From: a virus
Direction: 5' to 3' (one strand)
Virus record (IMG/VR): IMGVR_UViG_3300047496_000116
Location: 1 to 46,224 of that record
Length of the DNA stretch: 46,224 nucleotides
The translations under genes and the position numbers were made by a program. The notes under the pieces are model-generated. The model saw only the letters and a program-made list of their open reading frames with translations. It was not told the DNA's origin and ran no database searches. Positions 5,646-46,224 of the stretch are shown piece by piece; within the stretch, counting starts at the first letter, position 1; every line of letters starts with the position of its first letter.

Positions 5646-6007
5646 GATTGTTTCTCCTTCAATCTATCAAACATTGATTTTTTCTTTGGTGGCTCTGGTG
5701 GTGCCATCAATTCCCGTAAAGGGATGAATAGCGCCTTTGCAAACTCATACGATAGTTGCGTGTCATCAAATCCCATACTATGCTCTGTCGCTTGCATGAC
5801 TATCAAGCAGTCATCAGCCCATGGCACTTCTAACACTCTGGTGTTTTCGGCCACGGCTCCAGCTTGCTCATACTGTTTGCCGTGCCACTTAAGTAGCTTC
5901 TCCCAAAACTGTTCCCTAGTCTTGCCAGAAGTAACCCTTTCTTTGGTCAGTATCTCCTTGCACTGTTCCTTCGTCCACACCTTCTGTGAAGATTGACTCA
6001 AGCTCAT
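5642..6007 (-). CDS. Hypothetical protein, possible replication accessory factor
   Basis: I place the start at ATG 6007 (MSLSQSSQKVW), preceded by a GGGGGAAA Shine-Dalgarno-like run, giving 121 residues. An in-frame upstream start at 6043 is possible. The N-terminal 92 bases overlap the end of the DnaB-type helicase gene in another frame. The helical N-terminal half (KEQCKEILTKE, REQFWEKLLKWHGKQ) is followed by a Pro-rich linker and a basic tail ending MFDRLKEKQ. The position after the helicase hints at a loader or accessory role, but no motif proves it. Confidence 0.55.
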   Translation of the reverse strand: MSLSQSSQKVWTKEQCKEILTKERVTSGKTREQFWEKLLKWHGKQYEQAGAVAENTRVLEVPWADDCLIVMQATEHSMGFDDTQLSYEFAKALFIPLRELMAPPEPPKKKSMFDRLKEKQS

Positions 6008-7670
6008 TGGTTTCCCCCCGTACTTGTTCTTTAGGTAGCCCATCTATGTGAAAGCCCTCTACTATTGTCGCCGTCTTAAAGTGGCTCGTTATCGCTATGC
6101 GCTTCCTGACTGTACCATCTCTACCCTTGCCGATTGCTAAATAACCTACGGCTATACTGTCTTGCTGTAATCTCTCTTTGATTTTAGGCGCCATTGATTC
6201 TTTCGTTTTCTTATCGATTGATTCGATATCCCTTTTATGCGGCCACCACACCGTAATTGCCACACCTTCGGGGTCGAAGTGTGAACAGAACTCGTCAACA
6301 GTAGGCCCCTGAAGAAGCAAGACGATATCAGCCGCGTAGCTAAGTCTGCTGCTTCCCTTGAGGTCTTCCGGTGCCAATACCCTGTCATAAGCTTCTTTCC
6401 TTATTTCACTGATACAAATGACAGCATCGTGTCTGTGAATACTGCTCTTAAGCTGCTGTGCTGCCTCTACCTGCCACTCATCTTTATCCATGTCTGTACG
6501 TAGTACCTTCCTTAAAGCATCAGGCACCCTGAGCCTTTGTAGATAGTCCAACACATACATAATACGTGTGCATCCAGTGCGCTTCTTCGTCTCATTCCCC
6601 ACGGCAATAGCATCTTCGATGTTGCCAGTAAAGTTAGTGTGGTCGAGTACAACCAACCTGTCGCCAAATACCTCCACCTCCTTCCTGCCGGTCTTAATTG
6701 GTACATTGTGGCCGCGAACAAATTCCTTCCACTCAAAGCCACCAACATAGCAGCGTATACGTGTCAGTAAATCGTTAGTGTCCATATCCAGGTTCATGTA
6801 CACTACACAGGTGTCAGGTTGATTCTGTAGCACCTGTATAGCTAGCTGTGTCGCTAGCACGGTCTTGCCTAGATTGGGCGGTCCACCTAGAAAGATAAGC
6901 CCACGTAGCCCTAAGAGCCCGTCAGTCAATTCCTTCATGTCGGTTTTTAAACCAAGTATGTCCCGGTCTCTGTATTGTACCACATCTGCTTCGTGGTCAT
7001 CCAGCATTTCATTTAGTGTACGTACCGGCTTTAGCTTGGATAGGCGTGTTAGGGCTTCGCTCTCACTGTAGCCATCAAAGAGCACGAACTTAGCCTCTTC
7101 AAAGCTACCTTGGCGGGCTAGCTCATCTGCCATCTTTGAAGCATTGCGAATGATGTCATTACTCTTCTTGATGGTGACATTGTGCCGGTAAGCCTGGTAT
7201 AGCTCCCCTATGGGCTGCTCTAATGGGCCAAGGTGCTCTTCTATCACCGGCCAAAATTGCAGCGCCATATGAGCTATACGGATAGGGTTAGTGATGCTTT
7301 CATCAAAGCGTATGACAGCATTTACTAGCTCTTCTTTATCCTCAAACCTGTCAATAAATGTGTAAGCCTGCCAGGTGTGCGCTGAGTGCCAGCCACCACC
7401 TCCAGAATCTACTAGCACCTCTGGTGGTACCACTAGGCGATAAGCGTAATCTATTACCCGGTCGATATATTTTTGCTCTTCAAAGCCAAGAACTATCTTT
7501 TTTATGCCAGCATCAATAAGAGCCTGTAGGTCGCCCGGGGTTACTACCGCCGGGTCGCCCACCGACACCATACCTTTAGCTGGCTCATCACCATCAATCA
7601 GTATGATGGTATCTGATTTGGACTCCAAGGCAGTCTTAAGCCCTATCCATCCAAGGTCTTCTAAAGCCAT
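5916..7670 (-). CDS. DnaB-family replicative helicase with degenerate TOPRIM-like N-terminus
   Basis: A 584-residue helicase. The RecA-type core shows Walker A GGPPNLGKT (262-270), Walker B VLDYLQ (373-378), a downstream ICISEIRKE motif, and KGSSRLSYAADIVLLL matching the DnaB signature after Walker B. Residues 20-90 (TIILIDGDE, then KKIVLGFEEQKY) resemble a TOPRIM fold but lack the usual catalytic Glu and the DxD pair, so primase activity is unlikely. No zinc domain is present. It should unwind DNA 5'-3' at the phage fork. The start follows GAGGTG and overlaps the RusA gene end by 10 bases. The last 31 codons overlap the next gene. Confidence 0.85.
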   Translation of the reverse strand: MALEDLGWIGLKTALESKSDTIILIDGDEPAKGMVSVGDPAVVTPGDLQALIDAGIKKIVLGFEEQKYIDRVIDYAYRLVVPPEVLVDSGGGGWHSAHTWQAYTFIDRFEDKEELVNAVIRFDESITNPIRIAHMALQFWPVIEEHLGPLEQPIGELYQAYRHNVTIKKSNDIIRNASKMADELARQGSFEEAKFVLFDGYSESEALTRLSKLKPVRTLNEMLDDHEADVVQYRDRDILGLKTDMKELTDGLLGLRGLIFLGGPPNLGKTVLATQLAIQVLQNQPDTCVVYMNLDMDTNDLLTRIRCYVGGFEWKEFVRGHNVPIKTGRKEVEVFGDRLVVLDHTNFTGNIEDAIAVGNETKKRTGCTRIMYVLDYLQRLRVPDALRKVLRTDMDKDEWQVEAAQQLKSSIHRHDAVICISEIRKEAYDRVLAPEDLKGSSRLSYAADIVLLLQGPTVDEFCSHFDPEGVAITVWWPHKRDIESIDKKTKESMAPKIKERLQQDSIAVGYLAIGKGRDGTVRKRIAITSHFKTATIVEGFHIDGLPKEQVRGETNELESIFTEGVDEGTVQGDTDQRKGYFWQD

Positions 7671-10263: not shown

Positions 10264-10293
10264 ACAATACCACACCACTTTGCTAAATTGCAA
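10264..10293 (-). promoter_or_regulatory. Candidate promoter for the recT operon
   Basis: On the minus strand TTGCAA (10293-10288) is followed by an 18-base spacer and TATTGT (10269-10264), preceded by TGG to give an extended -10. Predicted start of transcription is near 10257. The same TGGTATnnT core recurs in plus-strand intergenic regions, and TTGCAA recurs at other intergenic sites. Confidence 0.55.
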
Positions 10294-42260: not shown

Positions 42261-42326
42261 TACCCCCCCCCTGTTTCTAACGTCTTTATAGTTTAGCAAA
42301 GTGCTGAGCCCAGTGTCAATGAAACC

Positions 42327-42341: not shown

Positions 42342-42899
42342 ATGAATATTTTGGTTGCATGTGAATATAGCGGCAAGGTGCGCGATGCTTTTAGAGCACG
42401 CGGCCATTATGCTTGGTCGTGCGATTTACTACCGACTGATTCATCTAGCGACTATCACTATCAAGGCGATGTAATCACGCTGCTTAGCAGCCGACTTTTA
42501 AAGTGGGACATGCTCATTGCCTTCCCTCCTTGTACGCATCTAGCGGTGTCCGGCTCGCGCTGGTTTAAGGATAAAGTGGTTGAACAGGGCGCAGCCCTCG
42601 ATTTTGTACGACTACTCTTGTCGCAGCCCATACCGCGTATTGCACTAGAGAACCCTGTCGGCGTCATATCCAGCCAAATACGCAAGCCTGACCAGATAAT
42701 ACAACCCTGGCAATTCGGACATGGCGAAACTAAAGCTACTTGCCTGTGGCTCAAAGGTCTTCCCTTACTTGTTCCAACTGATGTTGTTGACGGGCGCGAG
42801 GCACGAGTGCACAGGTTGCCACCATCATCCAATAGATGGAAATTGCGCAGCACCACATATGATGGCATAGCAAATGCTATGGCTGAGCAGTGGGGATAA
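42342..42899 (+). CDS. C5-methyltransferase-like phage protein
   Basis: A 185-residue protein with parts of a cytosine-C5 methyltransferase. MNILVACEYSGKVRDAFRAR is a motif-I-like SAM loop. FPPCTHLAVSGSRWF (61-75) carries the PPC-type catalytic motif IV. ALENPVG (101-107) corresponds to the ENV motif. The C-terminal part (RKPDQIIQPWQFGHGETKAT, LWLKGLPLLVPT) is typical of a short phage family. It lacks room for a full target-recognition domain, so activity or specificity is uncertain. The predicted transcript is leaderless. It could protect phage DNA from host restriction. Confidence 0.7.
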   Translation: MNILVACEYSGKVRDAFRARGHYAWSCDLLPTDSSSDYHYQGDVITLLSSRLLKWDMLIAFPPCTHLAVSGSRWFKDKVVEQGAALDFVRLLLSQPIPRIALENPVGVISSQIRKPDQIIQPWQFGHGETKATCLWLKGLPLLVPTDVVDGREARVHRLPPSSNRWKLRSTTYDGIANAMAEQWG

Positions 42900-43148
42900 T
42901 TCCAAAGCAGAGGTCCGGGATGACCTGAACTCAAATGCTAGCTAAGCACTCTATTGTTTCAGTGTGACCGGACATGCCCCATGGTAATTGGTATTATAGC
43001 AAATATAGGTTCCCCTACATGTCGCATCGGATTTTGGGTTAGTGGTGGGTCGTCAGCCCAGTGGTGGGGTACCCCCTACCCCTATGGTGGGCAGTCAATC
43101 AGCCACAATACCCTGGCCAATCAATGCAATACATCTAATGTACATCAA

Positions 43149-43241
43149 TGTATTGTACTCATTCATTGTGGTATAATACACATATGGATTGAGAGACAGC
43201 GAGCGGGCACAACACTCCATGATGGCAATGAGTACAATACA
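43149..43241. repeat. 15-base inverted repeat flanking a promoter
   Basis: TGTATTGTACTCATT (43149-43163) and its perfect reverse complement at 43227-43241, separated by 63 bases. The -10 at 43172 lies between them, and the right arm ends beside the ribosome site of the 43250 gene. The spacing suits looping by a bound protein. Confidence 0.75.
43169..43177 (+). promoter_or_regulatory. Extended -10 promoter
   Basis: TGGTATAAT, with TGTATT as a weak -35 at 17 bases spacing. Reads toward the 43250 gene, giving a leader of about 65 bases that contains the right arm of the 15-base inverted repeat. Confidence 0.6.
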
Positions 43242-43249
43242 AGGATGGT

Positions 43250-43450
43250 ATGATACCAATGGCTGAACGTGTATACTTAACTGAGTGCAATACATGCGAT
43301 AAGACTAATTACTCCTGGAAGTGTAACCAATCACAGTGTATTCACTGTGGTGAACATACACTGACCTTTACCGGCACCATGAATAGGGAAGAACCACAAT
43401 ACGATACTTTTGCGGATAAGGCAGATAATCAGGCAGAAAGAGGTTACTAA
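43250..43450 (+). CDS. Small zinc-ribbon protein
   Basis: A 66-residue protein. CNTCDKTNYSWKCNQSQCIH followed by CGE forms a zinc-ribbon-like Cys set. The C-terminal third is acidic and polar. AAGGA lies before ATG 43250; MAERVY at 43259 is an alternative start. It lies inside the repeat-rich region between two candidate control segments, so a role in replication or its control is possible but unproven. Confidence 0.65.
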   Translation: MIPMAERVYLTECNTCDKTNYSWKCNQSQCIHCGEHTLTFTGTMNREEPQYDTFADKADNQAERGY

Positions 43451-43471
43451 CAAGTTTGTTGGTTAAAACAA

Positions 43472-43492
43472 GAATGAAAACAGTTTTCATTC
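43472..43492. repeat. Near-perfect palindrome
   Basis: GAATGAAAAC, one central A, then GTTTTCATTC: a 10-bp stem with a single central base. It lies 22 bases after the stop of the 43250 gene. It could be an operator or part of the origin; there is no following T-run for termination. Confidence 0.85.
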
Positions 43493-43772
43493 CATTTATC
43501 ACCATACAGGATGAATATCTCATGAAAGCATTAAGATATAGCCGTAAGTATAACAAAATGTATGCAAGATTTATATCATACAAACATATATCTTGTGTAT
43601 ATATTTTATACAATACATATTGACAACTAAATATTATCCCATTGCATGGCCATTTGATGCCATAATTACTCTCATTTTAATGTGCATTATGGTACAATAC
43701 ATCATCCCTATATCATAACGCCTAAGCTAGCGTGTGGCGGTACGCACACACACGCTAAGCTAGTGCGTCATC

Positions 43773-43802
43773 ATGATGATGATGATGATGATGATGATGA
43801 TG
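43773..43802. repeat. ATG trinucleotide microsatellite
   Basis: Ten perfect ATG units in non-coding DNA (CAT on the other strand). Copy number is expected to vary by slippage. It sits between two inverted repeats. Confidence 0.95.
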
Positions 43803-43809
43803 CATAATC

Positions 43810-43864
43810 ATGCATGAACATGGTTTTTTATCTGTCATACTGACATAAAAAACCATTCATGCAT
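43810..43864. repeat. Large imperfect inverted repeat (hairpin/cruciform)
   Basis: ATGCATGA (43810-43817) pairs with TCATGCAT (43857-43864), ATGGTTTTTTAT (43820-43831) with ATAAAAAACCAT (43845-43856), and GTC with GAC, with 2-base bulges and an 8-base loop region. This 23-bp stem is too AT-rich to be a typical terminator. Confidence 0.85.
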
Positions 43865-43895
43865 CATGTATGATGTTATGACATGATGATGCATG

Positions 43896-43917
43896 ACGCG
43901 CGTGCACGCGAGCGCGT
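43896..43917. repeat. GC-rich palindrome
   Basis: CGCGTGCACGCG (43899-43910) is a perfect 12-base palindrome. The wider arms ACGCGC and GCGCGT add a second pairing. It lies about 30 bases before the 43948 gene. Confidence 0.85.
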
Positions 43918-43947
43918 AGTATTACTTTACTTTTTTAGGAGAAAAAC

Positions 43948-44175
43948 ATGAGGAAGATAGTAAAGCTTAGGGGTATGAATAATGGTTTTATCGCCTATGT
44001 GGCCGCTGGTCAGATAGCTGCTATTGAGGCAGACGACACTGAAGATATCTCCGTTAAGGTCACGCTAGCCAATGGCCTTTCCTTTGGTGGTGTCTTTTCT
44101 CCTGCGTTGCCTGAACTGCTCGACCTAATGTCAGACACCACAACTAAACCATTAACTAAGAAAGAAACTGAATAA
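43948..44175 (+). CDS. Hypothetical small protein
   Basis: A 75-residue protein with AGGAG seven bases before the ATG. Beta-rich (IVKLRGMNNGFIAYVAAGQI, VKVTLANGLSFGGVF), then a short helix and polar tail. It is the first gene after the origin-like region. No family recognised. Confidence 0.65.
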   Translation: MRKIVKLRGMNNGFIAYVAAGQIAAIEADDTEDISVKVTLANGLSFGGVFSPALPELLDLMSDTTTKPLTKKETE

Positions 44176-44176
44176 C

Positions 44177-44210
44177 TTGCAATTAATGCAAATAGATAGC
44201 ATGGTATGCT
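44177..44210 (+). promoter_or_regulatory. Candidate promoter with TTGCA inverted repeat
   Basis: TTGCA-ATTAA-TGCAA (44177-44191) is a perfect 5-bp inverted repeat, followed by TGGTATGCT (44202-44210), an extended -10 type core. It lies upstream of the 44273 gene. The TTGCAA word is shared with three other control regions. Confidence 0.4.
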
Positions 44211-44272
44211 ACATTATCTAAGCCAGTCAGGGGCTTGCCTGATATCTAAATCTCAACATAGGATATATAATA

Positions 44273-44632
44273 ATGAACGACTACAGCAAAGCGGTTAAGA
44301 AGCTCCGCGGTGGCCTTCCTGAAGCTCTCAGGCTCTCAAAGGAAGCACCCAAACCAACACCAATAGGTAACGACAACATGACACGCCTATTAATCGAGAT
44401 TGATCTACACGACGCCCACGGCAACCGCATGAGCGATGAATCAGTAGCGGGCCTTCTGTTTGGCCTAGCTGGCAAGATACGCAAGAGCGGCCTACAGGAC
44501 ACACACATACGGGATATGCACTACAACATAGTGGGCTGCATGTTCCAGCATGACAAAGAGGTGTCACTAACCGAACCCAAGCCAGACCTGTTTGGCAGCT
44601 ACCGGCTTGATAGCGCCACGGAGAGAGTATGA
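44273..44632 (+). CDS. Hypothetical protein
   Basis: A 119-residue protein with a helical N-terminus (NDYSKAVKKLRGGLPEALRL), a Pro linker (APKPTPIGN) and an alpha/beta domain (MTRLLIEIDLHDAHGNRMS, VAGLLFGLAGKIRKSGLQD). The 20 bases encoding the linker recur at 44827-44846. GGATA is a weak ribosome site. The stop overlaps the next ATG. Function unknown. Confidence 0.6.
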   Translation: MNDYSKAVKKLRGGLPEALRLSKEAPKPTPIGNDNMTRLLIEIDLHDAHGNRMSDESVAGLLFGLAGKIRKSGLQDTHIRDMHYNIVGCMFQHDKEVSLTEPKPDLFGSYRLDSATERV

Positions 44633-44846
44633 CTAGCACAGTAAAAATCGGCAAGCGTGCTTGTGGCGCCAATTGGCCTATGGTGCTGACAATCTGGTCA
44701 ACAGACCAGGATGCAGTAGACGTAACGGCGCGAGTGGAGCAGGCGCCACTATCAAACACAGGCCTGGCGCGCACTGTCACTATTCGCCTGTCGGCAGAGG
44801 TAGCTAACGCGCTTACGGTAGCCCTAACCCAAACCAACACCAATAG
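44347..44846 (+). repeat. 20-base direct repeat pair
   Basis: ACCCAAACCAACACCAATAG occurs at 44347-44366 and 44827-44846, 480 bases apart. The second copy lies exactly where the frame of the 44629 gene is broken. Suggests recombination, or an assembly misjoin, at this repeat. Confidence 0.9.
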
Positions 44847-44886
44847 AAAAACCCCGCCATCTAGGCCACGATGCTGGCATTGGTGA
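44629..44886 (+). CDS. Hypothetical protein, frame broken near 3' end
   Basis: An 85-residue frame starting at an ATG that overlaps the previous stop (ATGA). Residues 1-65 look coherent (VTARVEQAPLSNTGLARTVT, RLSAEVANALTVAL). The last 20 (QTNTNRKTPPSRPRCWHW) are probably out of the original frame, because a long protein-like frame begins at the same point in the +1 frame (44828-45064). Either a frameshift or a recombination joined two genes. Function unknown. Confidence 0.5.
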   Translation: MTSTVKIGKRACGANWPMVLTIWSTDQDAVDVTARVEQAPLSNTGLARTVTIRLSAEVANALTVALTQTNTNRKTPPSRPRCWHW

Positions 44887-45064
44887 TGTCGTCCAGTTTA
44901 CCTACCCTGCTGACCCGTATAAGCCCGATGGTGAGTATCAAGAGCTTATGGGCATTGTCCAAGCTTTTGGCAGGTATGGTCAGTTACTTATCGCTACTGA
45001 TATCATGCGCCCAATGTACCTACATTCTGTTGGTCCAGCGCTTATAACCAAAATACTTAAATAG
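44828..45064 (+). pseudogene. Orphan coding segment without a start codon
   Basis: A 78-residue open segment with no usable start (PKPTPIEKPRHLGHDAGIGD start, ALITKILK end). The content looks like a real domain (VVQFTYPADPYKPDGEY, FGRYGQLLIATDIMRPMYL). Its first six residues match the linker of the 44273 gene, encoded by the 20-base repeat. It is +1 to the preceding gene, across A5C4 homopolymers. A one-base error, +1 frameshifting or recombination are all possible. Confidence 0.5.

Positions 45065-45148: not shown

Positions 45149-46224
<1,076 letters not shown>

Follow-up and report, generated by a model that had tools for sequence, protein, structure and literature searches.

A non-coding stretch of about 500 bases lies at 43451-43947 of the viral record IMGVR_UViG_3300047496_000116, which has 46,224 bp and is referred to over its full length as the window. 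All six frames of the stretch are interrupted and codon scores are negative in every frame, in agreement with the initial annotation, which had described it as non-coding and proposed a replication origin or master control region. One bordering ORF stops at 43450 and the next begins at 43948. We found the locus to be longer than the stretch originally flagged: it reaches upstream to about 42900 and would be the main non-coding control locus of the phage, with 43451-43947 as its downstream half. The first gene downstream codes for a 75-aa product that matched no family and had no homologue in the phage collection. On the upstream side lies a DNA methyltransferase gene on the + strand (42342-42899; phrog_757). 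Its product is 60-71% identical to methyltransferases of widely differing phages (cyanophages, Burkholderia and Arthrobacter phages and an archaeal virus), and was not found in the close relative described below.

The lowest GC content and the least stable duplex of the entire 46 kb, measured at 100, 150 and 300 bp, all fall within 43451-43947. The AT-rich stretch of the initial annotation was confirmed, with a GC content of 21% at 43545-43644. The perfect 21-base palindrome, the direct repeats, the ten ATG units, the hairpins and the GC-rich palindrome that it listed were each recovered, and the features of the locus are collected in Table 1. Its 9-bp inverted repeat was recovered less specifically, as several repeats of similar size exist and that one was not singled out.

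Table 1. Features of the non-coding locus, with two genes located elsewhere in the window. Coordinates are those of the window.
Feature	Position	Strand	Remarks
DnaB-like replicative helicase	5916..7670	-	
Cro/C1-type HTH protein, 72 aa	40085..40303	-	PF13443 above cut-off; candidate GTAYNRTAC binder (inferred)
Whole locus	42900..43947 (left edge approximate)		Non-coding except short ORF 43250-43450; precedes + strand operon genes
GTAYNRTAC site GTATTGTAC	43150..43158		Overlaps -35 position of promoter-like site 43169
Extended -10-like TGGTATAAT	43169..43177	+	Takes in GTAYNRTAC 43171-43179; consensus match only
GTAYNRTAC site GTACAATAC	43232..43240		Inverted repeat partner of 43143-43163 (21 nt, 90%)
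Promoter-like TGGTATGAT	43246..43254	+	Takes in GTAYNRTAC 43248-43256
Short ORF, 66 aa, zinc-ribbon-like (CxxC pairs)	43250..43450	+	Weak family matches only
Perfect 21-base palindrome GAATGAAAACAGTTTTCATTC	43472..43492		Arms of 10 bp
AT-rich minimum, least stable 150 bp of window	43489..43638		GC 24.7%, z 4.3
Near-match ATACAATAC	43608..43616		Within AT-rich stretch
TTGACA-N5-ATATTATC	43620..43638	+	One copy per genome, at AT minimum, in window and relative
Promoter-like TGGTACAAT	43690..43698	+	Takes in GTAYNRTAC 43692-43700; candidate leader start
Hairpin 1, GC-rich, CTAAGCTAGCGTGTG...CACACACGCTAAGCTAG	43718..43768		
(ATG)10 tract	43773..43802	+	10.0 copies, 100% matches; belongs to CATCATGATG hairpin
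Hairpin with T6/A6 stem, ATGGTTTTTTATCTGTCATACTGACATAAAAAACCAT	43820..43856		
Hairpin TCATGCATCATG...CATGATGATGCATGA	43857..43896		
GC-rich hairpin enclosing perfect palindrome CGCGTGCACGCG (43899-43910)	43896..43917		Weak terminator-like match (43898-43917)
Ribosome-binding sequence AGGAG	43937..43941	+	Free of hairpins; direct reading
First gene downstream of locus, 75 aa	43948..44175	+	

Inverted repeats cover 118 of 500 bases in the flagged stretch, compared with 49 in the runner-up region, which bears out the statement that no other region of the window is this dense. A coverage of at least 118 was also reached by three of 159 pieces taken from other viral contigs, and thus it is unusual but not unique. 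Folding was compared with dinucleotide shuffles: 43451-43947 folded as DNA gave z = -8.0, and the leader, which is the last 243 bases of this stretch, gave z = -6.1 when folded as RNA. The leader of the relative gave z = -5.0. After GC correction, the + strand at 43681-43920 is the top-folding 240-base segment of the window (z = -4.2); on the - strand, a low-complexity Ala-repeat array near 45.7 kb gave better folding. In both phages, the sense strand folds better than the antisense strand by about what base skew predicts. Once skew is allowed for the two strands are equal, and therefore selection on RNA is indicated by nothing here and strand bias in folding was rejected as proof of RNA function. 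We also rejected a Met-rich leader peptide translated from the ATG tract, which is not conserved in the relative and on direct reading is not preceded by a ribosome-binding sequence.

Except for a difference in repeat length, the ends of the record overlap over about 160 bases, and the record is therefore probably a complete genome, terminally redundant or circular. Genes for a T7-type head-tail adaptor, terminase, a RecT-like annealing protein, a Gam-like protein, RusA and a SNF2-type helicase are on the - strand, and small genes, together with the DNA methyltransferase gene, are found mostly on the + strand. The premise of the initial annotation, a replicative helicase without a polymerase, held: a DnaB-like helicase is encoded, and searches for DNA polymerase families A, B and C found none in the window or its relative, with control searches positive. 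Separately, hexanucleotide arrays (GCAGCC/GCAGAC and GCTGCT) occupy 45649-46168, 1-107 and 870-1109. They sit in two + strand ORFs (45149 to the end, and 528-1175) whose products have long Ala/Asp/Tyr-rich tracts, and the first array crosses the overlapping ends of the record.

We found a single close relative, IMGVR_UViG_3300031962_000006 (45,048 bp, also from IMG/VR). A megablast of the window against phages and plasmids returned no relatives, and searches with the MCP, portal and TerL returned this record as the only one among close matches, with none among genome contigs. The two phages are 69% identical in TerL, 88% in MCP and 73% in the adaptor, and the core gene order of the relative matches that of the window in inverted orientation. 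The counterpart locus is the longest ORF-free gap of the relative (44061-45048; L165:4061-5048). Direct alignment of the two loci yielded nothing significant beyond short motif matches. The layout of the two loci is nevertheless the same: towards the operon, both phages have scattered sites, an AT-rich minimum, a hairpin array and then a gene. Each phage has the AT minimum of its genome in its non-coding locus, and the locus of the relative has the top inverted-repeat coverage of its genome (198 of 500 bases). The genes just downstream have no detectable relatedness between the two phages, and the arm that runs from the HTH gene to the SNF2 helicase, in which both phages have their long non-coding stretch, contains no small + strand gene detectably common to both. 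With neighboring genes unrelated, we consider common descent of the two non-coding stretches likely rather than proven, in a comparison that rests on two genomes.

The two phages also differ in the four-base sites that they avoid. GATC is nearly missing from the window (8 found compared with 145 expected), and the relative instead avoids GGCC (21 compared with 132 expected), which suggests differing host restriction systems. In the relative, about 1 kb adjoining the non-coding locus (L163:151-1200) has a GC skew near +0.5, much higher than elsewhere in the stretch profiled.

The sole significant sequence common to the two loci is GTAYNRTAC, an interrupted palindrome. The motif search was unbiased, covering all 9-mers on both strands with one mismatch permitted, and GTAYNRTAC was the most enriched 9-mer family in both loci. 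Because the hairpins of the relative are made of GTACTGTAC-like units, we repeated the test with both hairpin arrays removed. GTAYNRTAC still ranked first, with a score of 8.1 compared with a shuffle maximum of 3.1 (0 of 200 shuffles). The whole window contains 11 exact sites, where 2.1 are expected, and five of the 11 fall in the locus, which is 2.3% of the sequence (binomial p-value = 2.5e-6, calculated after motif choice). The relative has six sites outside its hairpin array (binomial p-value = 7e-9, likewise after motif choice); with the motif picked on the same data, the 200-shuffle test without hairpins is fairer than either p-value. Exact sites in the window's locus are spaced irregularly, at 21, 61, 16 and 444 bp, and the arrangement is thus operator-like and unlike that of iterons.

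Three of the GTAYNRTAC sites coincide with TGGTAYNRT, an extended -10-like sequence of which the locus has four copies in the + direction. Correctly oriented copies are also found upstream of gene 1346, recT (10236) and the methyltransferase gene (42342). In the relative's locus TGGTAYNRT is not clustered, and a sigma-70 scan found promoter-like sites to be no more numerous than in shuffles. For both reasons, we treat these elements as putative promoters. A 12-mer, TTTAGCAAAGTG, has exactly two copies in the window, one upstream of recT (10276-10287, - strand) and one upstream of the methyltransferase gene (42292-42303, + strand), and both stand immediately before a TGGTAYNRT element. The TTGACA-N5-ATATTATC sequence was rejected as a conserved element, having been chosen after both sequences were viewed and having a blastn E value of 9.5, which is not significant alone; it may still serve as a lead.

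Our conclusion is that the most likely role of the locus is to switch a group of small genes, and that DNA copying might start there as well. On balance, we lean towards reading 42900-43947 as the promoter/operator region of the + strand small-gene operon, whose transcript would carry a structured leader. From these features, we infer the promoter activity, the binder and the role of the leader as follows. The operon would have its promoters and operators in the GTAYNRTAC sites, some of which lie within extended -10-like TGGTAYNRT promoters. Transcripts begun by RNA polymerase near 43700 would include a series of stacked hairpins, about 240 bases long, ahead of the gene at 43948 and would form a strongly folded leader with its ribosome-binding site left free. 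Timing would be set by a phage protein on GTAYNRTAC, most plausibly the Cro-like HTH protein. The AT-rich stretch would ease DNA opening for polymerase, and replication could make use of that opening too. The HTH gene is retained in the relative (32% identity), and its presence in both phages was counted for the operator reading; perhaps its product regulates via GTAYNRTAC. Likewise, the same inverted-repeat scan of lambda and P22 placed their peaks at late-operon leaders, and in lambda also at cos, and the peaks at late-operon leaders were counted for the leader reading. The unrelated genes just downstream, the lack of a sigma-70 excess, the unclustered TGGTAYNRT of the relative and the equal folding of the two strands weigh against this reading. 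Of the two roles initially proposed, that of a control region is well supported, by the repeated palindromic site common to both phages, the promoter-like sequences along the operon and the matching layout of the relative. The other role, that of an origin, stays at the level of a possibility.

Known phages offer partial likenesses, and literature searches found no closer precedent for the locus. The lambda OR/PR-cro-O-ori region resembles it in having repeated palindromic sites by promoter-like sequences, a Cro-type HTH gene in the genome and AT-rich DNA downstream, with a promoter and a possible origin in one locus. In lambda, however, there is no large hairpin array, whereas in the window the HTH gene is not adjacent but some 3 kb distant, the sites are irregular and no O/P-like genes were recognized. 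The primary origin of T7 (phi1.1A/B plus an AT-rich stretch) likewise combines promoter-like sites with a neighboring, extremely AT-rich intergenic stretch that ranks with the least stable DNA of its genome, but T7 has its own RNA and DNA polymerases and no hairpin array at this origin, whereas the window lacks the DNA polymerase families searched. The late leaders of lambda and P22 are similar in that inverted repeats are densest immediately before an operon. They carry qut and terminator sequences, whereas the window has no good terminator and an operon of small genes without known function.

An alternative, which we regard as a serious possibility but would not expect to prevail, is that the locus is a replication origin: an initiator would bind GTAYNRTAC, 43489-43638 would melt, the DnaB-like helicase would load and host polymerase would copy the genome. 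The hairpins could be single-strand entry or priming sites in such an origin, and opening could be by transcription, as in lambda and T7; we give these details the same tentative standing. In both phages the AT minimum lies beside the densest inverted repeats in the same locus, and the order of sites, AT-rich minimum and hairpins is common to both and persists despite unrelated neighboring genes. Presence of the elements in relatives had been named as a check on the origin proposal, and the layout in the single relative found favors an origin, as does a helicase encoded without a detected polymerase. The T7 origin region ranks 3rd-4th among the least stable windows of its genome, alongside other promoters. 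In lambda and P22, by contrast, the origin coincides neither with the least stable DNA nor with the peak of inverted repeats. An AT-rich unwinding stretch adjacent to the sites, as expected of an iteron-type origin, is present and is the genome minimum, but evenly spaced initiator sites are not. No O-like or Rep-like initiator was recognized among the proteins searched, a subset of all ORFs. There is no DnaA box (TTWTNCACA) in 42900-43947, although the relative's locus has one, and DnaA and IHF sites were rejected as origin marks, as they are not clustered in the locus. The skew change expected at an origin failed to appear: GC skew tracks the direction of genes and the composition of their proteins and does not turn at 43.7 kb.

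The two functions may both hold, because in lambda operator, promoter and origin can be coupled, with origin opening requiring transcription from a repressor-controlled promoter (PMC5043065). We consider it rather unlikely that the locus is a transcription-coupled origin whose layout of 9-bp palindromic sites, AT minimum and hairpin array has been kept with almost every base changed, in a helicase-encoding, polymerase-less lineage without a known initiator.

Still less probable, in our judgment, is that the hairpins are passive, that is, that short repeats (ATG, or GTACTGTAC in the relative) expand by slippage in a gene-poor spot and have no function beyond the promoter. The hairpin sequences are wholly different between the phages and are built from low-complexity units, which favors this account, but the arrays stand at the same point of the module order in both phages and consist of several unrelated stems rather than one expanded repeat. 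A transcription terminator or attenuator before gene 43948, or a non-coding RNA gene, is highly doubtful: the leader folds strongly as RNA and has one weak terminator-like match, but that stem has no directly following U-run, and no curated RNA family (Rfam) reached threshold in the window, the sub-threshold matches being mostly to eukaryotic miRNA and snoRNA models and therefore taken as chance hairpins.

The analysis identifies a specific cis-acting locus and offers GTAYNRTAC as a candidate binding site in a lineage with one detectable relative in the collections searched. Its layout is conserved without alignable sequence, and alignment-based annotation would miss such loci. If the locus is indeed an origin, an unrecognized initiator would be at work in phages that have a helicase but no polymerase.
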